A stretch of DNA of 64,000 nucleotides from Hemerocallis citrina (lineage: Eukaryota > Streptophyta > Magnoliopsida > Asparagales > Asphodelaceae), in NCBI GenBank assembly GCA_017893485.1, contig CM030364.1, forward strand, positions 45,374,754-45,438,753, read 5' to 3'. A program made the position numbers and the translations under genes. Positions within the stretch are counted from its first letter, which is position 1, and the number at the start of each line of letters is the position of its first letter. The notes beneath the pieces were generated by a model. That model was given only the letters and a program-made list of their open reading frames with translations, did not search any database and was not told the origin of the DNA. Of this stretch, positions 3,098-47,628 are shown piece by piece.

Positions 3098-3754
3098 CTA
3101 CTGGGCCCGCTGCCTTCCGCGAGGTTGGGGTTGGGGTTGGGCCTGCAACTGGGCCACCTGAGCCCTCAAGAGCTCCATCCCCGCCTCAAGGCGCACAATC
3201 TTTTCTTGGTGTCGGGCCTTCAGCTTCTTAATTTTTCAAGTGGCCTTGACTTTGAATCGCTCAACCCTGCCCACGGCCTCCACAAGGTCCAACAGCTCAA
3301 AGTAGTCTTTGATGAGCTGGGTTATTCGAGATCGATCAACTAGGATCAGATCTCACACCCACTTTTCAGTGATCAAGAAAATGTAGTTGTTGTCTTAGCA
3401 GAACGAGATGACCCACCCGCTTATGTGTTTTGTCACAGGTCTGCTCCACGGCTTTGGAGTCGGTCCTCCAACATGCCATGACTGAAACGATAGGTAGGGA
3501 ACTCCCGTAAGACTCGATCCATTGTACGCTAGATTGTGTCCGGCTGGGGAGGTTGTGGTGGAAGCTGCTCAGCTACGAGGCGATCTTCGCATTGGAAAGA
3601 TATCTGCCCTCAACATCAACAATCGTTATGGGATCCTCGCCCACGTCCTCTGCTCCCACCTCGGGCTCCTCGCCCTCCATCATCAGATCCTCCTCATCCG
3701 ATGCGTTCCTATCTCGAACCACAAGTTTTGCTCTGGGAAGTCGCCGTCAGCCAT
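3098..3754 (-). pseudogene. Degraded gag-like reading frame of a gypsy element
   Basis: Reading leftward from an ATG at 3754, coding-like sequence can be followed through several frameshifts and stops to a TAG at 3098-3100. The last ~65 residues look like a coiled coil rich in K, E, R and L, followed by a Q/P-rich basic tail. It lies between a minus-strand primer binding site (3920-3931) and a deletion to the left, which is where gag is expected. I do not recognise a specific gag family, and no zinc knuckle, protease or polymerase follows. It could instead be the private frame of a non-autonomous LTR element. Confidence 0.4.
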
Positions 3755-3919
3755 CCTGCGAGAGAAAACAAGGGCATTAGTACAGATATAGAAAATCATA
3801 AGACATAAGTTGAAAGTGCAACATTATGAATTATGATTTATCGTATATCCATACTAAACTGACTCCACTGAAGCATCCAAGTCTAATCTCCTGTGGTGTT
3901 AGACTAAAATTTAAAGTAA

Positions 3920-30792: not shown

Positions 30793-30796
<4 letters not shown>
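30648..30796 (-). repeat. 149 bp LTR (5' LTR of small element)
   Basis: On the minus strand it reads TGTTAGATATT...AAATCCTCACA. It matches 28350-28535 of the left LTR, which carries an extra ~48-base tandem duplication (TTGATTGAATAAACTGAATAC twice). An AT tract separates it from the large TIR transposon starting at 30864. Confidence 0.85.
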
Positions 30797-30863
<67 letters not shown>

Positions 30864-30866
<3 letters not shown>

Positions 30867-33700
30867 CGTTCTTCGGTTGCAAACGGGCCTGAACGGGTCG
30901 GTTTGCACGGACCCGTGCGAACTTCGGTCTGGACCGTTGGATCAAAGATCCAACGGTCTAGATTTTTTTTATAAAATCTTGCCTTAACCCGTCGTTGGCA
31001 AGAACGGGTTAAGGCAAAATTTTATTTAAAAAAATGACCTTAACCCGTTATTCCCAAGAACGGGTTAAGGCTATATTTTTTCATTTTCGTCGACATACAG
31101 TTCGTCTTCTTTCTTCTATCCCAACTCCAACGACGAACCCAAACCCAACGACGGAAAAAAAAACCCTAAAAATTTCTAGCTCCGACGATCGAAACCCTCG
31201 AACTCTCTCTTCTCTCCCCACTCCGAAGATCGAAACCCTCGAACTCCGATGATCGAAACCCTAGCTTCTCTTCCCTTCTTCGACATGAATTTGGAACCCT
31301 AGTTCTCTTCCAAAACCGTTTCCTTGGCTTGATTTCGACTTATTCCGTAAGGTATACACTATTTCTTTACCCCAATAATCTACATTTGTAATTTTTTGAT
31401 TGAATTTGTGTGTAGTAATTTATTTAGAAATTTGGGAAAAAATTAAATGTGTTAGTAGATTTTAGATGTAGAATCGGGGAGACTCTCAAGTATATTCAAT
31501 TGCCGAATTATGTTGCTTGCATTAGTAACTTGTAGAATTAGAATTGTATATACAAAATTAGTTAGAAACTTTTCAGTGCGGTTATGGTTGAAAACCCTGC
31601 GAACGACCGTAAAAAAATACGAAACTTTGCGAGTAGGTTTGTCTCACATAGTACAAGCCACACCAACTTGTAGAAGCGAGTTTCGACTCACGGTTCGAGA
31701 GATACGGCCGCGTATCGCTTTCGGTTGGAAAAAACCAAGTATAGCGGTGCACGAGCGTATATCGCAAACCGTGACACGAAACTCGCTTCTACAAGTTCAG
31801 CTAGCTTCCCCTACGTGAATCCGACCAAGTCGGTAAGTTTTATAATTTTCAGATGCCGTTTGCGCGGTTTTCTCAACTTCCTCGCTTTACAAGTTTTAGA
31901 CTTAGAATTTTGTAAGTGCGGGTAGGTTAGAAAACCCTTCAAACGACCTCTAAAAAATACGAAACTTTGCAATTTGGTTGGTGTCACCCACGAGAAGCCA
32001 AACCAACTTGTAGAAGTGAGTTTCGACTCACGGTTCGAGAGATACGGCCGCGTACCGCTTACGGTTGGGAAAAAACCGTGTAAAGCGGTAGACGGCCGTA
32101 TCTCGCGAACCGTGACTCGAAACTCGCCACTACAAATTCAGGTGGCTTGCCCTACGTGAATCCGACCAAGTCGGAAAGTTTTATAATTTTCGGGTGCCGT
32201 TTGCGCGGTTTTCTCAACTTCCTCGCAGTACAAGTTTTAGACTTAGAATTTTCTAAGTGCGAGTAGGTTAGAAAACCCTTCAAACGGCCTCCAAAAAATA
32301 CGAAACTTTGCGGGCTGGTTGGTGTCACCTACAAGAAGTGACCCGAAGTTGTAGAAGTGAATTTTGACTCACGGTCCGAGAGATACGGCCGCGTATCGGT
32401 TTTGGTTGGAAAAAAACTATTATAAAGCGGTATACGGTCGTATCTAGCAAACCGTGAGTCGAAACTTGCTTCTACAAGTTCAGGTGGCTTGCCCTACGTG
32501 AATCCGGCCTAGTCGGAAAGTTTTAAAATTTTCGGGTGCCGTTTGCGCGGTTTTCTCAACTTATTCGCACTACAAGTTTTAAACTTAGAATTTTCTAAGT
32601 GCGGGTAGATTAGAAAACCCTTCAAACGGCCTCCAAAAAATACGAAACTTTGCGATTAGGTTGGTGTCACCTACGAGAAGCCAAAAGAACTTGTAGAAGT
32701 GAGTTTCGACTCACGGTTCGAGATATACGGTCGCGTATCGCTTTCGGTTGAAAAAAACTATTATAAAGCGGTATACGGTCGTATCTCGCAAACCGTGAGT
32801 CGAAACTCGCTTCTACAAGTTCGGGTGGCTTGCCCTATGTGAACCCGACCAATTGGGAAAGTTTTAAAATTTTTGGGTGCCGTTTGCGCGGTTTTCTCAA
32901 CTTCCTCGCATTACAAGTTTTAGCCTTAGAATTTTCTAAGTGCGGGTAGCTTAGAAAACCCTTCAAACGGCCTTCAAAAAATACGAAACTTTGCTGTTTG
33001 GTTGGTGTCACCTACGAGAAGTGAACCGAAGTTGTAGAAGTGAATTTCGACTTACGGTCCGAGAGATACGGCCGCGTATCGGTTTTGCTTGGAAAAAAAC
33101 TATTATAAAGCGGTATACGGTCGTATCTGGCAAACCGTGAGTCGAAACTCGCTTCTACAAGTTCGGGTGGCTTGCCCTACGTGAATCCGGCCTAGTCGGA
33201 ATGATTTAAAATTTTCAGGTGCCGTTTGCGCGGTTTTCTCAACTTATTCGCACTACAAGTTTTAAACTTAGAATTTTCTAAGTGAGAGTAGATTAGAAAA
33301 CCCTTCAAACGGCCTCCAAAAAATACGAAACTTTGCGCTTAGGTTGGTGTCCCCTATGAGAAGCCACCCGAACTTGTAGAAGTGATTTTCGACTCCAGAT
33401 TCGAGAGATACGGCCGCGTATCGCTTTCGGTTGAAAAAAACTATTATAAAGCGGTATACGGTCGTATCTCGCAAACCGTGAGTCGAAACTCGCTTCTACA
33501 AGTTCGGGTGGCTTGCCCTACGTGAACCCGACCTAGACGGAAATTTTTAAAATTTTCGGATGCCGTTTGTGCGGTATTGCTCTATTTCCTCCCATTATAA
33601 GTTTTAGAATTAGAATTTTCTAAGTGCGGGCCGTTTATAAAACACTTCAAACCACCTCCAAAAAATACGAAACTTTTCTCCTTTTCAAGTTGTGGTGGCT
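30864..33700. repeat. Left terminal inverted repeat with six ~341 bp units
   Basis: The outer ~490 bases hold the terminus, a pair of TTAACCCGT...ACGGGTTAA hairpins (30979-31070) and a leader rich in GATCGAAACCCT. From about 31610 six tandem units follow, with ACTTGTAGAAG or its variants at 31666, 32006, 32347, 32689, 33030 and 33372. Every unit has inner dyad symmetry: the ACTTGTAGAAGYGAGTTTCG end returns inverted ~130 bases later, around a GATACGGCCGCGTATCG core. Inverted counterparts make up the right TIR. The last left unit is the most diverged. Confidence 0.9.
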
Positions 33701-33773
33701 TGCGCACTTATAAAAATACCAAATACAATGGTTTAGTACCCCTAACTATTCTCCTCTTCACAGTTTCTTAGGT
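31352..33773 (+). promoter_or_regulatory. Putative leader intron of the transposase inside the TIR
   Basis: A donor-like CGTAAG|GTATAC occurs at 31347-31357, after a pyrimidine-rich, untranslated-looking stretch. Acceptor-like sites lie just before the transposase ATG (TCTTCACAG and TTCTTAG|GT). The same donor occurs inverted at 47161-47170, upstream of the PMD gene, whose own acceptor TTTTTTTGTCAG sits seven bases before its ATG. This suggests that each gene begins in its TIR and splices out the satellite array. Inference from splice sequences only. Confidence 0.4.
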
Positions 33774-36111
33774 ATGGACAGTTTCGAAGGAAGTTCTGTT
33801 GCCGGGGATAAATTTGTTCGTACACAACAACTTGGCGAGTATCTTCCTCATGTTGACGAGCACCTAAAACCGAAGATTGGTATGACATTTTCTACCCTTG
33901 AGGATGCAGAAAAATTTTATTCATCATATTGCAAATGTGCGGGATTCGCTATGCGTAAGGGTGGAAATAAATATAAGGAAAACGACGTAGTGGATAAATC
34001 ATACGTCTGTAATAAAGCTGGGGAGTCACCGAATAGCTATAATGAAACCAGACGAGGTACAACTTCTAGAACTGGTTGCAAAGCTTTCGTCCGTGTGAAA
34101 ATAAACCCACATAGTACTTCACAAAGTAATTCGTGGATTATTTATTCGTTAAATAAAGCACACAATCACGAATTTACTTCACCCGGTAGACGTCACTTGC
34201 TACCTCGAAACCGTGAATTGACTAAGACAGATAAAAATGTAATTGGTCAACTTACCGAGGCTAATGTCCCTGTATGCAAACAAATGCTATTCTTTGAAGG
34301 TGCAAGTGGAGGTAATGAGAAAATTGGATTCACTGAAACCGATGTAAGAAATCTTAGGAGAGACGAGATGGAAGGTTTAAAAGGACACGACGGACAAATG
34401 CTACTTGAGGTTTTTGAATCGAAAAAGGCGACCGATCCCTTATTCTATTTTGATTACCAATGTGACCCCGAAGGGCGATTGACACATTGTGTCTGGGTGG
34501 ACGGTATCGCCAGAAATAATTACAAAGTATTTGCGGATGTTCTCTGCTTTGACGCTACCTACAACACAAACCGATACGGGATGTTGTTCGTACCATTTGT
34601 TGGATTCAACCATCATTGGCAATCAATATTCCTAGGTTGTGGGTTCATCCCCAATGAGAAGACATCCTCATTTGAGTGGTTCTTTGAAAAGTGGCGTGCT
34701 GCAATGCCATATGATCCGATCAACATCGTGACAGATGAGGATCACGGGATAACTTCTGCAATTTCCAAAGTTTTCCCAATCACGTCACATAGATATTGCA
34801 TTTGGCATATTTTGGATAAGCTACCGCATGAAGTTCGAATGTCGAATAACGTTGATGAGTTCAGGGATGCTTTGAAGACTATTATTTATACGGCGGAATT
34901 TAAAACAGAATTCGAACAGAAGTGGAAAAATTTGATCTCTCAGTACAAATTAGAAAATAACAAATGGTTGAAGGAAAAATTTGAGATCCGTGAAAAATGG
35001 GCCCCTGTGTACGCAAGAGACTCATTTTGGGGGGGCATGTTGAGTACCCAACGTAGTGAATCGCTACATTCATCCTTGAAGCACCATACTCATAAAAAGT
35101 ACTCACTACATGAATTTGCTATCATCTTTGACCAACTCTTAGTAAAACAAAGACACGATGAACTTAAAGAAACACATCGTAATCGCGAGGAGCGGCCAAA
35201 ATTGAAGACCGAGTGGGCATTGGAGTCACAAATGGCAGGAACATACACTTTGAAGATTTTCTACAAATTTCAAGAAGAAGTGGTCAAAAGCTTATTACTT
35301 AATGTGAGTTTAATTGCGAGTATGGATACACCGGATAGTGCAGCTTATTCTGTAACAGTTTGTGGAAATTCAGAACCGAGGAGGGTGATTTCTTATTGTA
35401 AAATCAGTAAAATTGCTAAATGCCCTTGTTCCATGTACTACTTCGTAGGCATTCCCTGCAAACATCTACTTGCAGTTATTCGGTTCACAGATCACACCGC
35501 ACTACCCGAACAATATATTTGTAGGCGATGGACCAGGGATCAAATGAGGAGAAGCAGTATACCGGTTCCCAATAATATGGACGACAATTTTGCTTCGCAT
35601 TATTGTGAACTGAGTATGTACTCAAGACATATAGTCGATCTTGGTTGTTCTTCAGAGCGAGGATACAAGTACATGCTCGACCACATGCTGAAGGGAATTG
35701 AAGGCTTTGCTAAGATTGAGTCAGTGAACAGCACACCACACGAAGGTAGCGCACAACCTGAGAGTGGTGGACAAGCACATGCACATGCACATGTAGGTGA
35801 CCCTGTACAGTGCACCACAAAGGGGAGGCCTAAAGGGAAACGGTTGAAGTCGGTAAGAGAAGGTCAAAAAATGAAGAGGCCAAGACTTTGCAGGACATGT
35901 CTTCGTGTCGTAGGCCACGATTCACGGAATTGCCCAAAAAATTTAGCAAGGTATTATATCAGAGATTTGGTATTTGTTAATTGGACTCAAACTTTGTTAT
36001 TTTGGTCAGTACTAACTCATTCTTCTTCCTTTTTTTAGTGGATCGGTGGGCAATGAAGAAGCTCCAAACGCTGTACAGAGTGATGATGACGAAGGCGAAG
36101 GTTCGTGCTAA
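33774..36111 (+). CDS. FAR1-type MULE transposase, two exons
   Basis: Exon 1 33774-35950 and exon 2 36039-36111 give 749 residues; the intron is GT (35951) to a poly-T tract plus AG (36038). Without splicing the frame runs to 36038 with an unlikely hydrophobic end, whereas splicing gives a short acidic tail. N-terminal FAR1/WRKY-GCM1-type zinc-binding domain ~30-135 (FYSSYCKCAGFAMRKG, HNHE). MULE transposase core ~210-440 with candidate DDE residues D260 (CFDATYNTNRYG), D321 (IVTDEDHG) and E429 (QRSES). SWIM zinc finger at 550-564 (CPC...IPCKH) and a CCHC knuckle at 706-720 (CRTCLRVVGHDSRNC). All key residues are present. Role: binds TIRs and catalyses cut-and-paste transposition. Domesticated FHY3/FAR1 proteins share this layout, but the TIR context says transposon. 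Confidence 0.9.
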
Positions 36112-36661
36112 GGGGGGCTTTAAGAAATTTATTAATATGTATGTCATATCAAAATTTCAAATTAATCACCGAATAATTGCCGAATTTTATATTGATTCGT
36201 GCAGATTTTTATGAATTTCGACTGGATTGTTAACTTTGTTTTTTTTTTTTCCTGGTATAGGTCCGGAATGAAACAAGTATAACGCGCCAAAATGGAAAGA
36301 CGCAATACCGCGCTGAAAAATTGTGTTATTTTTGGATTGTATATATGTGTGGATAATTGCCGTATGCTTGTTTGGTACAAGTAAATTAATGATGTTTTTA
36401 ATTATAATGTAATTTCTGTATGTCAGTTTATTTTGTGTATTTGTGAACAAAGATATGTTACTATGGATTTTGACCAGGCATTTTGGTTGTGAATGCTTAT
36501 TGCTGTCGGAAAATATGAAATTGGTAGATGTGTACAATTTGGGGAACTCGTTCTGTTTGTGAATTTTGTGTTAACGAAAATTGTCTGCATGCCATGTGAA
36601 CAGATTTTTTATTTGTGTTGGAGATTGTGTATTTTGTGCATAACCAATACTTCACATGTAA
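36112..36661. other. 3' flank of the transposase, no gene seen
   Basis: AT-rich, with poly-T at 36238-36250 and no credible frame. Probably the 3' untranslated region and intergenic sequence. Confidence 0.4.
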
Positions 36662-37415
36662 GTTCGGCCAATATCTCTTTTCTTAACCCGTTCTTGGCGT
36701 TAACGTTTTAATACAATCTAACCCGATATCATAAATAACGGGTTAAGGAGATAGATATTGGCAGTACTTTGGTTCAATACTTCACATATAGGGGTTTTAG
36801 TTCGGCCAATATCTCTCTACTTAACCCGTTCTTGGCGTTAACGGTTTAATACAATCTAACCCGTTATCAGAAATAACGGGTTAAGGAGATAGATATTGGC
36901 AGTACTTTAGTTCAATACTTCACATATAGGGGCTTTAGTTCGGCCAATATCTCTCTACTTAACCCGTTCTTGGCGTTAACGGTTTAATACAATCTAACCC
37001 GTTATCAGAAATAACGGGTTAAGGAGATAGATATTGACAGTACTTTAGTTCAATACTTCACATATAGGGGTTTTAGTTCGGCCAATATCTCTCTACTTAA
37101 CCCGTTCTTGGCGTTAACGGTTTAATACAATCTAACCCGTTATCAGAAATAACGGACTAAGGAGATAGATATTGGCAGTACTTTGGTTCAATACTTCACA
37201 TATAGGGGTTTTAGCTCGGCCAATATCTCTCTACTTAATCCGTTGTTGACGTTAACGGTTTATTTAACCTAACCCGTTATCAGCAATAACGGGTTAAAGA
37301 GATAGATATTCGCAGTACTTTGGTTCCAACACTTTCACATATAGTGGCTGAAGCTCGGCCAATATCTCTCCACTTAGCCCGTTATTGGGAATAACGGGTT
37401 AGGTTAAGAATTCCT
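36662..37415. repeat. Six tandem ~138 bp foldback units
   Basis: Each unit runs GGCCAATATCTCTCTACTTA, then ACCCGTT, a short loop, AACGG, a second hairpin TCTAACCCGTTATC...ATAACGGGTTAAGG, and ends GATAGATATTGGC. The outer arms pair with each other, so one unit can fold as a ~95-base hairpin enclosing two smaller ones. Units begin near 36662, 36801, 36940, 37076, 37214 and 37352; the last two are more diverged. Single modules of the same design occur at 41430-41885. Confidence 0.88.
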
Positions 37416-37736
37416 TACATTGCTTTCAACTTCGTGCTATCTTCTTGCCCTGATACATATACATATTTGTGCATTCTCCGCTTAAAAATATTATCAGATT
37501 AACTTTAACGGGTGTTGGACATATTTTCGTTTGTTGATACATATACAAGATATTGCATTCACAACAAGCCATTTGCAAAACAAAATTTATTCATATAAAG
37601 GAATATTACAAACTGGCACTAACATAATGTTTGAAGAAACAGAAAATTGACACGCGATATTAATTTAGTACACAAGTGCATGCTCGCTTTCTTCTCGGAA
37701 GTGGAAGGAAGGACTGTTGACTCTGCCTTTTTTTGA

Positions 37737-38064
37737 TTGCATAAGTAGCCAGTTATACCCCCTGCATACAGTTTCGTTCTCTACTGTTATACAGAATGTA
37801 AAAATCCTCGGCTTCCTTCGAAACTTAGTAGTAGTGGGTGTAACCGTATATTAAAGGTACTTAACGACTTCTTGACACGCACTCCTCATATTCGTACCAT
37901 TTGTGGTACGATTGTGAGGTGTGCATGCCAAGAAGTCGAAAAGTACCATGAATACACCGTGACACCCACCACTACTCCGTCCGACGAAAGCCGAGAATTT
38001 CTACATTCTGTGTAACAATAGAGAACGAATGTGTATGAAAGGCGTACAGTTGCTACATATGCAA
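37737..38064. repeat. ~330 bp foldback, copy 1
   Basis: Two ~155-base arms pair around a centre CGTACCATTTGTGGTACG near 37893-37910. By eye the arms agree at roughly three quarters of positions, with shared blocks such as GTTCTCTA.TGTTA.ACAGAATGTA and GACTTCTTG. No frame of interest. Such a hairpin could be transcribed into a stem that feeds small-RNA production. Sequence at 37416-37736 to its left shows nothing else recognisable. Confidence 0.8.
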
Positions 38065-38258
38065 ACACACCTGTTCTTGCTAAAAAAATAGAAGATTAAG
38101 GAAAACACTGTGGGAAAAAAGGGCAGAGCTAGCGGCCCTCCCTACCGCTTGAGAGAAACCGAGCATGCACTTGTACACTGAAACAAGTCTCTCTTCTCCT
38201 ACAACTCCATACACAAGAACAATTGTAGGCGACCATCCTTGAACTCAAGAGGTCTTGA

Positions 38259-38584
38259 ATGCATAAATAGCCAGTTGCACCCCCTGCATACAAGACCCGT
38301 TCTCTACTGTTATACAGAATGTAAGAATCCTCTGCTTCGTCGGCCGGAGTAGTAGTGGGTGTAACCGTATATTAAAGGTACTTAACGACTTCTTGACACG
38401 CACTCCTCATATTCGTACTATTTGTGGTACGATTGTGAGGTGTGCATGCCAAGAAGTCGAAAAGTACCATGAATACACCGTGATACCCACCACTACTTCG
38501 TCCGACGAAAGCAGAGAATTCTTACATTCTGTGTAACAATAGAGAACGAATGTGTATGAAAGGCGTACAAATGCTACTTATGCT
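38259..38584. repeat. ~330 bp foldback, copy 2
   Basis: A second copy of the hairpin at 37737-38064, offset by ~521 bases, with the centre CGTACTATTTGTGGTACG near 38414. Both arms are retained. The intervening 38065-38258 and the following sequence (AGCTAAAAAAAATAGAAGA, ACACTGTGG) are also duplicated, so the whole ~520-base segment was copied in tandem. Confidence 0.8.
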
Positions 38585-39199
38585 AACACATATAAAAGCT
38601 AAAAAAAATAGAAGACTAATAGAAACACTGTGGAAAAATGGGTTGAGCCGGCAGCCCTTCTCTAATCTTGCCATTCTTCATACACAAGCACAATTGTAGG
38701 GGTCTTGAAGAGAAGAAGAGAACATTGATTACACCTCAATTTTCTTCTACAACTTCAGCTTTGTCTTCCCTATTGGGAAGAAAAGAGGGGTCTTGAAGAG
38801 AAGAGGAGAACATTAATTACACCTGGTTTCAAACAGGTAGAAGAGAAGAGGAGACCACTTATGAAGAATGAGGAGACTCCATTTGAGTTCTCCTGAAGAG
38901 AAGGAGAGGAGACTCCTTCTTGAAGTGAAGAAGATCAAAGGTCCCTCATATAGGCTAGAAAATTCAGTGGGGAGCATGATAGGACCAAAGAATGTAGAAA
39001 GGGCTGTTTCTAAATAGAGAAGGGATAAGCACAAAACGGAATGGACAAGGATGGATTAAACATAAAGAAAAGTTCACAAGATGAAATTAGCAGTTAGTCA
39101 ACCATGTTATGAGCCAATTTTCGGAAAGGAGCAGCAAGGAAAACAATTGTCCCCACCAAATTGATACACATCTCAACTTGTACAGTGTCTGTAAAATTC
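38585..39199. other. Purine-rich stretch, no gene
   Basis: Direct repeats of TCTTGAAGAGAAGAGGAGAACATTAATTACACCT (interrupted in places) fill 38700-38935. The minus-strand frame here is a by-product of the purine bias. Nothing else is visible. Confidence 0.4.
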
Positions 39200-39277
39200 A
39201 TAACACTTAACCCGTTCTTGGCGACAACGGGTTAAGTGTACTTAACCCGTTGTCGCCAAGAACGGGTTAAGTGTTAT
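39200..39277. repeat. Near-perfect 78 bp palindrome
   Basis: Arms 39200-39237 and 39240-39277 are exact reverse complements of 38 bases with a two-base spacer. Each arm itself contains the hairpin motif TTAACCCGTT...AACGGGTTAA. Two weaker versions follow at 39300-39365. Perfect palindromes of this size extrude easily and are usually unstable, so conservation of the arms suggests recent origin or constraint. Confidence 0.92.
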
Positions 39278-39795
39278 TGGTTTCTGCCAGAGTACTTTAA
39301 CTTAACACGTTAATGATGATAACAGGTTAGGTACTTGTACCCGTCATCGCCAGTAACAGGTTAGGTGTAGCTAAATCATTTATACTCATAATTTTTAAAT
39401 CGCATGTAAAAAAAATGTTACCAATGTGGAGGTAATAGGTAATAAGTTAATATTTGTAATAGGTATAGGTAATCATTTATGATAAACTACAAATATTAAA
39501 TACGTTAATATTTGTAGCTTGGAGGTAATAGGTAATAAGTTACCAATGTGGAGTTTATAGATATTTAAGTTCTATCATTAATCACATACGCCTCTCCACT
39601 CTTTACGTACATTTCCTTCTGAACTCTACAAAATAGACAGTCATATGTATGTGGTTTGTTTTTTTATATTTTTTTTTAATTTCTTGGCTAGCCACGTAAC
39701 TAACCAATATAAAATTGATCACATCAAACGGATATTAAAATTAACACAAATTTATTTGTATTTTGGTTCATAAAAAACAATATAAAAAATATTGT
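39278..39795. other. AT-rich stretch with short GGTAATA repeats
   Basis: Repeats of GGAGGTAATAGGTAATAAGTTA near 39428 and 39523 and of ATATTTGTA. No gene or RNA recognised. Confidence 0.4.
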
Positions 39796-39857
39796 AGGTT
39801 AGGGTTAGGGTTAGTCTAGGGTTAGTAGGGTTACAGTTAGGGTTAGGGTTAGGGTTG
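39796..39857 (+). repeat. TTAGGG-type telomere-like tract
   Basis: Nearly continuous GGGTTA repeats with a few interruptions (TAGTCTAGGGTTAGTAGGG). The six-base TTAGGG form is seen, not the seven-base TTTAGGG usual in plants. An opposed tract lies at 41148-41214. Confidence 0.85.
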
Positions 39858-40058
39858 GAGTATCCACTTCTTTTCTCTTCGTAGCAGACACTTTAATAAT
39901 ACGAAAAACCTAAAGTGCATATACAAAAGTAGATCGCCACATGTAACCTATATATTGGCTACATCCACCTGTATATCCCCAAATGTAGAGTCTCCACTCA
40001 TTTGGCTTTTAATAGTGTCTGCTTTGAGATTGAGTTCTACTTGTTTAGCTTGTTGTGG

Positions 40059-40740
40059 GGGAAAAACCACATGTAGATCCCACATGTACCCTATATGAGG
40101 GAAAAACCACATGTAGATCCCACATGTACCCTATACAGGGGACAAAACCACATGTAGATTCCACATGTAGTCTTTATGGGGGAAAAACCAAATGTAGATC
40201 CCCACATGTAGTCTATGTATGGGAAAAACCATATGTAGATTCCCGAACGTGTGTACATAAGGAATGCACTTATTGTGAAAGGACTGATAAGAATCATTTT
40301 AGGCTGTCTTGCTGGCCCTCATTCTAATTTGCGGTGCTGAGATCCCTAATGGAAAGGCCTAACCAGATGCGTCACGTGATCCGCATCTCGTCATCAGATG
40401 AGATTAATTGGCTATCAAGAACTGGATCTGTACATGGGATCCGAATTTCCAAAGTTTTAAATAGTGTCTGCGATAATAGTAGGCGGGTGCTGAGTTATGC
40501 TTGTTTAGCTTGGTGCTTTTTCCCACTTAGGTGTATGTTCAAATTTTTCTGGGTTGTGGTGGTCACTTGGCTTAGATGACAACACCACTTCTTGTGTGAA
40601 GACCACATGTAGATTCCCACATGTAGTCTATATGGGGAAAAACCACATGTAGAATCTCACATGTAGCTTATACAGGCAAAAAACCATATGTAGATCCCAC
40701 ATGTAGCCCATATGGGAGAAAAACCACATGTAGATCCCCA
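40059..40740. repeat. ~40 bp tandem repeats around CCACATGTAGAT
   Basis: Five copies of GGGGGAAAAACCACATGTAG plus ATCCCACATGTA-like sequence at 40059-40240, and four more at 40600-40740, with a non-repeated segment between. Each contains CACATG/CATGTG palindromes. The repeats read open in both directions over ~70-90 codons (40055-40327 plus, 40297-40091 minus), but the translation is pure repeat. Confidence 0.85.
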
Positions 40741-41147
40741 CATCCACGTACAGAAAGACCAATAACGGGTTCGGAACAACTGTAATGATGAGGGTATTCC
40801 TAATGGAAAAGCCCCTCTGTGTTATTAGTGCGCAGTGCCACCAGATCTAATATGGATGGCTAACAAAAACTGGATCGGATCACATTTGTCAGCACGAGTT
40901 CACATGTAGTAGTACAATAAAGACATGTGGGAGTAGATATATTTGATTGACTGATGGATCGATGGATTCATTAGTGTGGGAATTTAGAATGGCCTGTTAA
41001 TGTACTACAAGTTAACGACTCGTGCCACAAATTAAGATACTTGCCATGTTTAACATGTGGTTCCACATGTTGCGAAGTCAAATATAGATGTGGGGATCCA
41101 CAAATATGAACCGAATTAACAAAAACAAAACACATGCACTCAGCAAT

Positions 41148-41214
41148 AACCCTATCTTAACCTAACCCTAACCCTAACCCGACACTAACCCTACCTTAAC
41201 CTAACCTTAACCCT
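41148..41214 (-). repeat. CCCTAA telomere-like tract, opposed to 39796-39857
   Basis: AACCCTAACCCTAACCC and degenerate continuation (CCTACCTTAACCTAACCTTAACCC). It is the reverse strand of the TTAGGG-type tract 1.3 kb to the left, so the two face each other across the ACATGTAG repeats. Confidence 0.8.
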
Positions 41215-41429
41215 CGGTACCAAAAAACGACTTCATCAAATTTTTTTACCTTCACAAAACTTATTATGGTAACAAATTTAGAGTGGTTAGCTATGGGAGA
41301 ATAAATGGAAATTAATAAAAATAATAAACAATTTATGGGCATATTAATGTCACCTTACACAGTTCAGGAGACAGTTCTCGCAAAGAGTGAGGAGAAATTT
41401 TTAGAAAACCCAAAATTTATTCAACACCT

Positions 41430-41885
41430 TAAACTGTTATTCACGAGAACGGGTTAAGTAACCTTTACCCGTTATTCCCAAGAACGGGTTAAGTACTTCG
41501 ATTTTTGGCAGTATAATTTGAAAACTTGGATAGGGCCCTGGCAATAACACTCTACATAACCCGTTCTTGCAAAGGACGGGTTAAGTTAAGTTAATACGTT
41601 ACCATCAAGAACGGGTTAAGTACAGTGATATTGGCAGTACTTTGATCTGTAGGAATTAAATGTCTGCCAATATCGCTATACCTAAGCCGTTGTCGTGAAG
41701 AACGGGTTAAGGCAATATAACCCATTGTTAGAAGTGACGGGTTAAGTAGATCCATATTAGCAGAACTATACCAAGACTTGGTCTGTATGCTTCCAAACCA
41801 CTGTCAATATTTCTCTACCTTACCCGTCCTTCCTGATAACGGGTTAAGCTAATTAACCCGTTATCGTGAATAACGGGTTAAGAAT
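41430..41885. repeat. Four diverged foldback modules with AACGGGTTAAG
   Basis: Modules at ~41430-41495, 41525-41640, 41655-41765 and 41800-41895 have the design of the 138 bp array: CTGCCAATAT-like left arm, two ACCCGTT...AACGGGTT hairpins, and ATATTGGCAG-like right arm. They are single, diverged copies and not a neat array. The stretch 41896-42286 after them has no gene. Confidence 0.8.
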
Positions 41886-42286
41886 ATACATTTGTGCAGC
41901 AATTAAGTTCTTGTTTTGGGTGGTGTACATTTTTCCTGATACAGAAACGACTTCATCAAATGTTCTTCACAAATTCACAAATCAACGCGCAGCACAGTAA
42001 ATAATACAACAGCTATCTTCAGAAGAAAGTTGACGGCGTACAAATGTCCAATAACGACCAACCACTTAATTACTTTAAATAAATTTAATATTCAAAAATT
42101 TACATATCAGGTTACACATGGTCAAAAGACTATTAATTACAAATGAAGGCGTTCTCGACTTTGGCTTGCATACCACGCCCCAAAATTCACCTACAACAGT
42201 TTATCAACGTAGAAACAAACAATACGTTAGTTACTGCAGCAACAAAATCACCAACCAAAAGATACGCTATTACAGAGTTTTATAGA

Positions 42287-44521
42287 TTACCGTCTACGGC
42301 CATCCCGCTTGCGACCGCTTGGTGTGAATTGATTGGGAGGTTGCCGTGTCCTTTTAGGATTTCGCCGTGCGCCTTGTTTTTGGGGAGAATCACAATCATC
42401 CGACGACTGTTCCTCGTCAGTCCCTTCGGGATTTGGCTCTTCTCGTGCTTGTTGTCGCTCGCGGATTAGAATTCCCCTACTAACAGTTTGTTTTCGCCTC
42501 TTACTTATTGGCGGCACGTTGGCGCTCAAATAGGCCTCAACCTGTGGACCTTCACCCGCGTCCTCCAGAGTACGACGGCACGGGGCTAACATCTCCCGGA
42601 TTACCGTTTTGAAGCTGTCGGGTATCCTAGTCTTCAGGACGCGAGCAGCTGTTCGGAAAACCTCCCATGCGTTTTCAATCTACAGTTGGTGAAAAATTCC
42701 AATTTAAACATCATTCAAAATTAGTGTACATCAATTAAACACAGTACATGCGTACAAACTATATAAAATTTGACTGACCGCTTTTCGATGTGCCTCAGCC
42801 CTTGGTTGGTACATCGGCTGGGAGGAGGAATATGCTGGAGGTGGATCTACCTGGGTGGGGGGAATCGGAAGTTGCACCCCAGATGGTACGGCGGCCGTTG
42901 GAGAAACGAACAACCGGGTTATTCGCTTGTACCACATCATGTATGCCTGCTGGAGGGAGCCATCGTATGGAATCGCGACATACATCAAATTCGGTGTCAT
43001 TTGACGCCGCATGGTGTTCCAGTTGGCTACATGATAACGATGAAAATCAGCCCAATCGAAGTTGGGCATCCGTCCCGTTCCCCTGACCTCGTGTAACTTT
43101 TTATCATAAGACCTGACATCGGGAATCTTTTGTTGATATCCGAATTGGCGCAGGACCTTGTCAGGATACTGGAACTCCACAACCGAAAAGTTCACAAGAG
43201 GTGCAGCCGTCAACCAAAGGGATCTGTCTAGGCAGACTGGAGGAACGCGTTGCAACCTATCGGCCGAGTACGGTTCCCAGTTGACGAACTCGTCCCGCAG
43301 GTTGTCCAACTCATCTCTGTAGTAGGTCAGCGATTGGCGTGGGTTATCGACCCACGTGTGTCGGCCGGCCCAATATGCTCCTAAAGAAGGTAACAACTCT
43401 GCTGCCCCCGGGTCGGCTAAAAATTCCGGTGTAGGCTTAATAATACGGGGACGTCCGATGTGGATGCGTTCCCAACTCCATATCTGCATCAGCACCATGG
43501 GGCCACCCATCTGTACGCCACCTAAAGAACATGTGTACAAATTCCTGTATAGTAGCGCCAGTGCTGCACTCCCCCAACTTAAGCGACCCGCATACCGGAA
43601 ATCTTCCAACAACCGTAGGTACATCAGCGGCACGGTTGATCTGGATGAGTTCGGGAAGAGAAGTTCCCCTATCAAACTAAAAATGTATGCACGTGCATAG
43701 TATGTCAGGTCATCCTCACCCGACTCGGGGTTCAAATATTCCTCCTCGAACTGAAATTTTAACCAGGTGATGTAAAGTGATTTACCCTTGAAAGCGTCAT
43801 CCATCACCTCTTGCTCTGCTTTAAGTTTCGCAGCTTCTATATGTTCATTCAATACATCTTCATCAGAATCTGCGGGGGCATTTTTGCGGATATTTTTTTC
43901 GGCGGCCTCTTGCATTTGGAGAACTACCAACTGCAGGTCGATACCGAGTAAGTCCCGAACAACTTCAACTCGATCGAAGTCCATGTTCCCCGTCACGGCA
44001 AACCCATCGACTGGTAGTCCTGTTATCATTGCCACATCCTGTAGGGTCACAGTCATCTCACCCACAGGCAGGTGGAATGTGTGGGTCTCCGGCCTCCATC
44101 GCTCGACTAGAGCTGTAAGGAGTGGCCGATCTAGCTTCACAGAGTGAATGAATCTTGCTCCGTAGAAACCGGCATCTACCACATACGGCGTGATACGGTC
44201 ATTCCAAGGAAGAACTGTGTGCTTCCGGAAATTTAATTTTTTATCGGACCCATTCCACACGGCTTCCGATCGGTGTTTGGGTTGCAGGGTGAGTATGCTT
44301 GTGTCCACGGGTCCGGGTGATGTAACCGAGAACGACGGACCTGCCTCAGCCGATGTGGATTGACGGCCACCAACCTGCACGAATAAATATAACAAATGTT
44401 ATTGTTGAGATAATGTTACATGTTTGTATTTAAAACCTATAATAGTAATCGATCTTACCTCAGTAGTTGGTGCGCCACTAGTGTTACCGGACTCGATTCT
44501 CGGTTTCCTGGTTCTAGCCAT
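42287..44521 (-). CDS. Plant mobile domain (PMD) protein, three exons
   Basis: Spliced model: exon 1 44521-44459 (starts MARTRKPR), exon 2 44374-42779, exon 3 42679-42287, all in phase 0 with GT-AG introns (donors GTAAGA and GTCAGT; acceptors TCGTGCAG and AACTGTAG), giving ~683 residues. Exon 2 carries the PMD: ARFIHSVKLDRPLLTALVER, WRPETHTFHLPVGEMTVTLQ and MITGLPVDGFAVTG at ~94-150, then a long helical part with LSWGSAALALLYRNLY. Exon 3 gives an acidic patch (EGTDEEQSSDD) and a basic Arg/Lys tail. PMD occurs in plant transposons and in the domesticated MAIN/MAIL1 genes, which act in silencing and development. Its job here is unknown; regulation of the transposon or DNA binding are possibilities. 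No stop or frameshift is seen. Confidence 0.88.
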
Positions 44522-44609
44522 TTAGCTACCTGACAAAAAAATTAAAATATTGTTGATAAAGATGACAACAAAACAAACATACCGAGATTATACTGAAAAA
44601 TGCACGAAC

Positions 44610-47600
44610 GAAAACAAATAAATCTATAAAACTTTCGTAAATAGGTCGGATTCACGTAGGGCAAGCGACACCAACTTGTACAAGTGAGTTTCGACTCATG
44701 GTTTGCGAGATACGACCGTATACCGCTTTATTAGGTTTTTTTCCAACCTTCAACCGATACGCGGCCGTATGTCTCGGACCGTGAGTCGAAATTCACTTCT
44801 ACAACTTCGGGTCACTTCTCATAGGGAACACCTTACAACTCGCCAAGTTTCGTATTTTTTGGATATGGTTCGTATCACTTTCTAATCGGCCCGTTTTAAA
44901 AAAATTCTAAGTCAAAAACTTCTCACTTGAGGAATTGACGCAATACCGCGCAAACGGCATCCGAAAATTTTAAAACTTTCTGTCTAGGTGGAATTCATGT
45001 AGGGCAAGCCACCCGAACTTGTAGAAGCGAGTTTCGAGTCACGGTTCGCGAGATACGGCCGTCTACCGCTTTACTTGGTTTTTTCCCAACCATAAGCGAT
45101 ACGCGACCGTATCTCACGAACCGTGAGTCAAAACTCAATTCTACAAGATGGTTTGGCTTCTCGTGGGTGACACCAACCAAATCGCAAAGTTTCGTATTTT
45201 TTGGAGGTCGTTTGAAGGGTTTTCTAACCTACCCGCACTTACAAAATTCTAAGTCTAAAACTTCTCATTTGAGGAAGTTGAGAAAACTGCACAAACGGCA
45301 TCCAAAAATTTTAAAACTTTCCGAGTTGGTCGGATTCACGTAGGGCAAGCCACCCGAACTTGTAGAAGCGAGTTTCGAGTCACAGTTTGCGAGATACGGC
45401 CGTCTATCGCTTTACTAGGTTTTTTCCCAACCGTAAGCGATATGCGGCCGTATCTCACGAACCGTGAGTCGAAACTCACTTTTACAAGTTGGTTTGGCTT
45501 CTCGTAGGTGACACCAACCAAATAGCAAAGTTTCGTATTTTTTGGAGGCCGTTTGAAGGGTTTTCTAAGCTACCCGCACTTAGAAAATTCTAAGGCTAAA
45601 ACTTGTAATGCGAGAAAGTTGAGAAAACCACACAAACGGCATCCAAAAATTTTAAAACTTTCAGAGTTGGTCGGGTTCACGTAGGGCAAGCCACCCGAAC
45701 TTGTAGAAGCGAGTTTCGACTCACGGTTTGCGAGATACGATCGTATACCGCTTTATAATAGTTTTTTTCAACCGAAAGCGATACGCGACCGTATCTCTCG
45801 AACCGTGAGTCGAAACTCACCTCTACAAGTTCGTTTGGCTTCTCGTAGGTGACACCAACCAATTTACAAAGTTTCGTATTTTTTAGAGGCCGTTTGAAGG
45901 GTTTTCTAATCTACCCGCACTTAGAAAATTCTAAGTCTAAAACTTGTAGTGCAAGAAAGTTGAGAAAACCGCGCAAATGGCACCCGAAAATTATAAATCT
46001 TTCCGACTAGGTCGGATTCACGTAGGGCAAGCCACCCGAACTTGTAGAAGCGAGTTTCAACTCACGGTTCGGAAGATACGGCCGTGTACCGGCTTTAGTT
46101 TTTTTTTCCAACCAAAACCGATACGCGGCCGTATCTCTCCGACCGTGAGTCGAAATTCACTTCTACAACTTTGGGTCACTTCTCGTACGTGTCACCAACC
46201 AAATCGCAAAGTTTCGTATTTTTTGGAGGCCGTTTGGAGGGTTTTCTAATCTACCCGCACTTAAAAAATTCTAAGTCTAAAACTTATAATGCGAGGAAGT
46301 TGAGAAAACCGCACAAACGGCATCTGAAAATTTTAAAACTTTCATAGTTGGTCAGGTTCACGTAGGGCAAGCCACCCGAACTTGTAGAAGCGAGTTTCGA
46401 CTCACGGTTTGCGAGATACGACCATATACCGCTTTATAATAGTTTTTTCAACCGAAAGCGATACGCGACCGTATCTCTTGAACCGTGAGTCGAAACTCAC
46501 TTCTACAAGTTCGGGTGGCTTCTCCTTGGGGACACCAACCAGCCCGCAAAGTTTCGTATTTTTGGGAGGTCGTTCGAAGGGTTTTCTAATCTAATCTAAC
46601 CGCACTTACAAAATTCTAAGTCAAAAATTCACATGCAGGGAAGTTGAGAAAACTGCACAAACGGCATCCGAAAATTTTAAAATTTTCTGACTTGGTCGAA
46701 TTCACGTAGGGCAAGCCACCCGAACTTGTAGAAGCGAGTTTCGAGTCACGGTTTGCGATATATGGCCGTGCACCGCTATACTTGGTTTTTTCCAACCGAA
46801 AGCAATACGCGGCCGTAACTCTCGAACCGTAAGTCGAAACTCGCTTCTACAAGTGGGTTTGGCTTGTACTACGTGAGACGAACCTACTCGGAAAGTTTCG
46901 TATTTTTTTACGGTCGTTCGCAGGGTTTTCAACCATAACCGCACTGAAAAGTTTATAACTAATTTCGTATATACAATTCTAATTCTACTAGTTACTAATG
47001 CAAGCAACGTAATTCGGCAATTGAATATACTTAAGGTCAACCCGAATCTACATCCAAAATCTACTAACGCATTTAAATTTTTTCCCAATTTCTAAATAAA
47101 TTACTAAACACAAATTCAAAAAAAAATACAAATGTAGATTATTGGGTTAAAGAAATAGTGTATACCTTACGGAATAGGTCGAAATCAAGCCAAGCAATGG
47201 GTTTTGGAAGAGAACTAGGGTTCCGATTTCGTACCGAAGAGGGGAAGAGAATCTAGGGTTTCGATCGTCGGAGTTCGAGGGTTTCGATCTTCGGAGTTGG
47301 GAGAGAAGAGGGAGTTCGAGGGTTTCGACCGTCGGAGCTAGGGTTTTTTAGGGTTTTTTTCCGTCGTTTGGGTTTGGGTTCGTCGAAGAAAGAAGAAGAG
47401 AGCGGAAGAAGAAGACGAACTGTATGTCAACGAAAATGAAAAAAGATAGCCTTAACCCGTTCTTGGGAAGGACGGGTTAAGGCCATTTTTTTAATAAAAT
47501 TTTGCTTAACCCGTTCTTTCCAACGACGAGTTAAGGCAAGATTTTATTAAAAAAATCTGGATGATCGAGGTTCGCACGGGTCCGTGCGAACCGACCCGTT

Positions 47601-47628
47601 CCGGCCCGTTTGCAACCGAAGAACGCTC
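44610..47628. repeat. Right terminal inverted repeat with seven ~341 bp units
   Basis: Inverted counterpart of 30864-33700. Units carry ACTTGTAGAAG or variants at 44674, 45017, 45358, 45699, 46040, 46380 and 46724. There is one unit more than on the left. The outer part has the leader (GGGTTTCGATCGTCGGAG), two TTAACCCGTTCTT...ACGGGTTAA hairpins (47450-47530) and the terminal block. The minus-strand frames of ~61 codons at 44995, 45336 and 45677 recur with the unit and are not genes. Confidence 0.9.

Follow-up and report, generated by a model that had tools for sequence, protein, structure and literature searches.

The 64,000-nt stretch of Hemerocallis citrina DNA analysed here (the window; assembly GCA_017893485.1, contig CM030364.1, positions 45,374,754 to 45,438,753 of the forward strand) carries a 16.8 kb transposon with terminal inverted repeats (TIRs), located at 30864-47628, in which the transposase gene of a Mutator-like element (MULE) faces a gene for a plant mobile domain (PMD) protein. 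An earlier note, made from the sequence alone, had placed the ends, the TIRs and both genes at these positions, and the terminal sequence, the alignment, the splice models and the Pfam matches bear this out. The terminal sequence GAGCGTTCTTCGGTTGC lies at 30864 on the forward strand and again, inverted, at 47628 on the reverse strand. The stretches between each end and the nearest start codon are 87% identical over 2,872 columns, left against right, with 85–95% identity per 300-column block up to around column 2,700. Because identity falls to 58% in the last block, TIR length was set at around 2.7 kb (left TIR, 30864-33560, forward strand; right TIR, 44930-47628, reverse strand). A tandem repeat scan found arrays of a 341-bp unit lying mostly in the left TIR (31575-33676, 6.2 units) and mostly in the right TIR (44644-46950, 6.8 units). 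These arrays stop around 100 bp before the start codon of the transposase gene and around 120 bp before that of the PMD gene, so that each gene starts beside a TIR.

The element is bounded on the left by an (AT)34 microsatellite (30796-30863) and on the right by a (TA)n microsatellite (47629 to approximately 47650). Because (AT)n occupies both flanks, a target site duplication, 8–11 bp long in MULEs, cannot be proven at this site. Eight ends, belonging to 6 copies, were inspected, and every one lies at an AT run; two of these ends reach the AT run through an intervening (GA)n and one has only around (TA)5. The family therefore targets TA microsatellites as MuTAnT-like elements do, and its TIRs are common to other copies, as expected of a MULE.

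The transposase gene (33774-36111, forward strand) has two exons, 33774-35950 and 36039-36111, and encodes 749 amino acids (aa). With a Pfam cut-off of E 0.001, the protein matched MULE (1.6e-27), FAR1 (5.2e-16) and Transposase_mut, while the match to the RNaseH-like domain of ZSWIM1-3 was right at the cut-off. DDE-like residues, recognised by pattern, sit in FDATYNT, TDEDHG and QRSESLH, and together with the transposase domain they place the protein among the MULEs; the N-terminal FAR1 domain is the basis for assigning it to the Jittery/FAR1-type group. The SWIM-like CPC..CKH was found by pattern alone, with no Pfam SWIM match at the same cut-off. The C-terminal Cys/His cluster is spaced CX2CX5HX4C and so exceeds the usual zinc knuckle by one residue. 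DBD_Tnp_Mut, the domain of MuDR-group transposases, was likewise without a match at E 0.001.

On the reverse strand, the PMD gene (42287-44521) consists of three exons (44521-44459, 44374-42779 and 42679-42287) with GT-AG introns, runs convergently with the transposase gene and encodes 683 aa matching PF10536 at 4.9e-74. PMD was the sole domain in a Pfam scan up to E 10, in which no mudrB-like second protein was seen, no direct comparison with mudrB having been made. MuDR comprises two convergent genes, mudrA and mudrB, each starting beside a TIR. The window element shares this layout and differs in having FAR1 rather than DBD_Tnp_Mut in its transposase and a PMD protein as its second product. 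The earlier description of a MuDR-like element with a FAR1-type transposase, open in both genes after splicing and carrying DDE, SWIM and zinc-knuckle residues, can accordingly be kept for the FAR1 type, the convergent layout, both open genes and the DDE-like residues; the transposase is not of the mudrA type, the SWIM remains a pattern-level likeness and the Cys/His cluster departs from the knuckle spacing.

Do the two genes belong to one element? We searched the 3.78 Gb genome, scoring only the best candidates, so the counts that follow are lower bounds. The PMD protein gave at least 78 matches (best 78 of 24,321 candidates; 92–100% identity) and the transposase at least 59 (best 59 of 15,622; 94–100% identity). 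A PMD match lay within 25 kb of 25 of the 59 scored transposase matches, and all 25 pairs were convergent, with 0.06 pairs expected. The left-end DNA was also searched (best 40 of 2,573 candidates scored); among the 40 copies listed, 6 had both genes, 6 the transposase only, 6 the PMD only and 22 neither. Of 12 copies, 10 have the transposase 2,904–2,919 bp away from the end, and the other two have it at around 2,560–2,575 bp. We then read 13 copies at the expected gene place (the 6 'transposase only', the 6 'PMD only' and 1 of the 22 'neither'), and 12 of them contained the missing gene or genes or remains thereof: PMD or part of it in 5 of the 6 'transposase only' copies (none in L047), transposase or remains in all 6 'PMD only' copies, and both genes, each interrupted, in the lone 'neither' copy. 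Copy A (C2), read entire, has both ends and both genes in collinear pieces 92–95% identical to the window element. Copy B (C3) was found only in part, namely its right side from 38606 onward; the left part was absent from the approximately 9.9 kb read beyond it. Other copies share the left end, the gene order and the spacing with the window element.

The earlier note had called for a search for further copies with the same ends and both genes, whose absence would have refuted its proposal; the search yielded such a copy in copy A and so did not refute it. Two separate insertions lying side by side by chance, for which no evidence was found, would not be expected to recur at many loci in one order and orientation with matching spacing; given 25 convergent pairs out of 25 and the missing genes or their remains in 12 of 13 further copies, we reject this explanation as next to impossible. 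The window holds one element, with two genes that travel together in a fixed convergent order.

Where does the PMD protein come from? Its best database matches bear MAIN/MAIL- or 'PP7 long form'-type names at no more than 40% identity, and a database search with three MULE PMDs gave no nearer relatives. It shares the Pfam domain with these host PMD proteins and differs from them in being encoded by a MULE and in its C-terminal motif R.ML..CR, which none of the 120 database homologues listed contains. Among those homologues, PMD is joined to MULE and SWIM in Heliosperma P0103 and Vitis P0112, and to SWIM in Vitis P0118. In a first tree (67 of the 120 listed proteins, 4 host loci and the window protein, without L056-L058, L060 and L061) the window PMD was unplaced. 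A second tree of 64 proteins, from which 18 rows of the first and some candidates had been dropped as long branches or near duplicates and to which five transcripts had been added, clustered it with L056, L057, L058, L060 and L061 (SH-aLRT, the Shimodaira–Hasegawa-like approximate likelihood ratio test, 99; the same group without L056 had a support of only 75). It groups with proteins named 'PP7 long form' or MAIN-LIKE, in trees built without Arabidopsis MAIN or MAIL sequences, and stands apart from host loci that we take to be PMD-B. In L056 (C2:294843135-294844445), PMD lies within a 641-aa frame whose N-terminus resembles a mudrA-type transposase, a fusion that is possibly gene-like.

The nearest relatives lead to a second MULE family. 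A search with the wheat PMD protein P0034 (best 60 of 20,125 candidates scored) included L057-L063, whose PMDs are 44–46% identical to that of the window. The three-exon layout of the window gene recurs in the PMD genes of L057 and L060, and the L060 protein aligns with the window PMD at 41% identity over 671 aa, from the MARTR start through the C-terminal R.ML..CR. Beside it, and facing it, lies a mudrA-type transposase gene, apparently shortened in its 3' part; the L060 and L064 transposases carry the MuDR-type DBD_Tnp_Mut, and that of L060 also MULE. When the first 422 residues of the L060 transposase were searched (best 99 of 13,512 candidates scored), a match lay within 25 kb of 28 of the 60 PMD places, convergent in all 28, with 0.08 expected. 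All of L060-L063 are among the paired places; L056-L059 are not, within 25 kb and among the matches listed, and neither the 57 further nor the 78 window-family PMD places listed have a mudrA-type match at that distance. PMD thus accompanies transposases of two types as an established second gene, and finding it in the same position on both suggests that it serves the element and is not carried along by chance. The simplest reading would be that one PMD lineage is common to both types, though two captures of one host gene may also account for it. Other FAR1-type families gave a weak negative result: none of 73 scored matches to an Asparagus homologue had a PMD within 40 kb among the PMD places listed (60 from the wheat P0034 search, 57 of 117 further ones and 78 of the window family). 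The genome is rich in such further FAR1-type MULE transposases, 55–62% identical to the Asparagus protein, and three mudrA-type/PMD copies (C496:289811, 304353 and 319123) all point the same way at intervals of 14.5–14.8 kb, as in a tandem array.

Selection was examined on both genes. For PMD exon 2, all 12 pairs between L057-L059 and L060-L063 gave a ratio of nonsynonymous to synonymous substitution rates (dN/dS) of 0.13–0.16 at dS 0.44–0.51; the comparison of the window PMD with that of L060 is saturated, the proportions of nonsynonymous and synonymous differences (pN and pS) being 0.35 and 0.76. Within the window family we counted nonsynonymous (N) and synonymous (S) variants common to at least two copies, omitting L025 and L027 as duplicates of L014 and L017. 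In 18 copies of the transposase the count was 26 N : 33 S, which departs from neutral (p 1.6e-5); in 21 recent copies of the PMD gene it was 37 N : 22 S (p 0.40). Sets that had not been selected by the gene itself gave 9 : 9 for the transposase (9 copies, p 0.06) and 17 : 6 for PMD (7 copies, p 0.66). Pairwise dN/dS values among window-family copies (PMD 0.43, transposase 0.34) were discarded, the copies having been chosen by protein similarity. Constraint on the PMD gene is thus seen between sister lineages. Among recent window-family copies it is seen on the transposase and was not detected on PMD, which may reflect relaxed selection, rapid change or limited statistical power. The shared variants of the recent copies would also fit a host gene that was captured and now rides along in the window family with hardly any function or none, and gene capture by MULEs has been described (PMC13317346). 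However, the window element retains an intact 683-aa gene, the long-term constraint between sister lineages is strong and the second-gene position is fixed on two transposase types; moreover, a lack of detected constraint over about 3% divergence is a low-power result that fits fast evolution too. We consider a mere passenger quite improbable.

The noncoding DNA of the element is marked by a short repeated motif. The element contains 35 half-sites AACCCGT/ACGGGTT, all outside coding sequence, where first-order resamples give 2.9; the remainder of the window contains 3. Dyads of the form AACCCGTT-N9-AACGGGTT, with up to two mismatches, number 26 in the window, all inside the element and none coding, with 0 expected; a spacing of N10 gave 0 matches, N9 being correct. 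Two dyads lie near each end of the element (54 and 56 bp apart), and 20 of the 22 internal ones form 10 pairs 34–35 bp apart. Eleven of the 26 (36685-37400) fall in a 138-bp tandem array 3' of the transposase gene (36661-37400), three in the spacer (39209-39328) and eight downstream of the PMD gene (41431-41879). Copy A has 26 dyads and 0 in its flanks, and the right part of copy B has 13. The mudrA-type pieces read, L060 and L064, contain none. Seventeen other loci (73,191 bases) contain two, both in L006, 57 bp apart in a short TA-flanked sequence (3600-3790) that resembles a miniature inverted-repeat transposable element (MITE), next to (AT)n and near a host PMD gene.

Such sites might be used by the transposition machinery itself. 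mudrB has been proposed as a cofactor of transposition or reinsertion, and the PMD protein could play such a part with the transposase at the TIRs, unrelated to silencing. The convergent two-gene layout resembles that of MuDR, and dyads are present at both TIR ends and in the TA-flanked MITE-like sequence; on the other hand, 22 of the 26 dyads are internal, and apparently the same PMD lineage occurs on two transposase types, with the mudrA-type pieces read lacking dyads. A cofactor role appears to us rather unlikely.

What, then, might the PMD protein do for the element? We tentatively favour the reading that this is a high-copy, TA-targeting and potentially autonomous MULE whose standing second gene, PMD, would weaken host silencing of the element. 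The earlier note had proposed the PMD protein as the element's own accessory or anti-silencing factor; PMD has proved a genuine second gene of the element, and its role as such a factor is our inference. The transposase would move the element into TA repeats, and the PMD protein, to judge from its basic C-terminus, would act in the nucleus, where it could weaken silencing by drawing off host MAIN/MAIL-PP7L complexes as a decoy or, alternatively, by being recruited to the dyad arrays as VANC is to VANDAL arrays. In its favour stand the convergent pairing in both families, the missing genes or their remains in further copies, copy A with its two ends and two genes, the homology of the two PMDs along their whole length and their joint clade, the low dN/dS between sister lineages, the noncoding dyads kept in copies A and B, and published work on host PMD proteins and VANC targets. 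Several points weigh against this proposal. The direction of the PMD effect is assumed, because host PMD proteins promote silencing in Arabidopsis. The shared PMD variants of recent copies do not differ from neutral. The dyads at the TIR ends and in the MITE-like sequence would fit binding by the transposase, and the latter tie the dyad to TA-targeting elements generally, which weakens its reading as a PMD site only. A bolder form, in which a mobile anti-silencing PMD gene has passed between FAR1- and mudrA-type MULEs and acts in the FAR1 type through the arrays, as an independently evolved counterpart of VANC derived from a relative of the host silencing machinery, seems unlikely.

Parts of this picture are already in print. 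Ikeda et al. (2017) described MULE-encoded PMD-C fused with transposase, inferred two captures and suggested anti-silencing (PMC5418596), an idea restated in a review (PMC8616336). Table 1 of Dupeyron et al. (2019) assigns 'PMD', in many cases antisense, to several groups of plant MULEs but not to the FAR1-bearing Jittery (PMC6446971); we take the term, not spelled out there, as plant mobile domain. Our element resembles these in being a MULE with a PMD probably from the host-gene clade, antisense as in several groups, and differs from the fusions of Ikeda et al. in that PMD is a separate spliced gene. VANDAL elements also have a second gene beside a MULE transposase and arrays of short motifs in noncoding DNA, VANC targeting tandem noncoding motifs (PMC5735166); the second-protein domain is another one, and the element described here has long TIRs, a FAR1-type transposase and dyad arrays that are candidate binding sites. 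MuTAnT and AutoMuTAnT of Medicago share the Jittery-like transposase and the insertion into TA microsatellites, but AutoMuTAnT is 4.9 kb long with a single gene (PMC4486113); the element described here is 16.8 kb long, with TIRs of 2.7 kb and PMD as a further gene. Host PMD proteins silence transposable elements with PP7L, partly through MORC1 (PMC7156037, PMC9899485); the Arabidopsis 'DOWN' motif CATGCAGTTT (PMC9899485) was rejected as a candidate site, with 5 window matches (up to one mismatch) against 5.1 expected. The literature searched, which covered few subscription papers, yielded no report of a FAR1-type MULE whose PMD is encoded separately, nor of a single PMD lineage occurring on MULEs of two types. 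Earlier publications thus cover the existence of PMDs on MULEs and their suggested anti-silencing role; the pairing with a FAR1-type transposase and the sharing across two transposase types were not found there. The use of PMD proteins by transposons against silencing has so far been printed speculation. A high-copy, recently multiplied family with PMD as a separate gene makes it directly testable, together with a parallel family bearing another transposase, copies with broken PMD or broken transposase as comparison material, and a defined candidate binding array.

Further PMD sequences and spacer repeats were noted. Among the matches listed, many more full-length PMD frames of around 510–522 aa, several with equal scores, are spread across many contigs and may be borne by Ty3/gypsy elements, for which PMDs are known. 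The spacer contains two direct copies of a palindromic stretch of around 400 bp (37733-38139 and 38255-38658), also present in copy A, which might be a source of hairpin RNA or a nested foldback element; no Rfam RNA was found in 36000-42300 at the gathering threshold. It also holds 40-bp repeats (ACCACATGTAGAT...) and telomere-like GGTTAG/CCTAAC runs, at 40058-40243, 40602-40743, 39797-39856 and 41161-41214.

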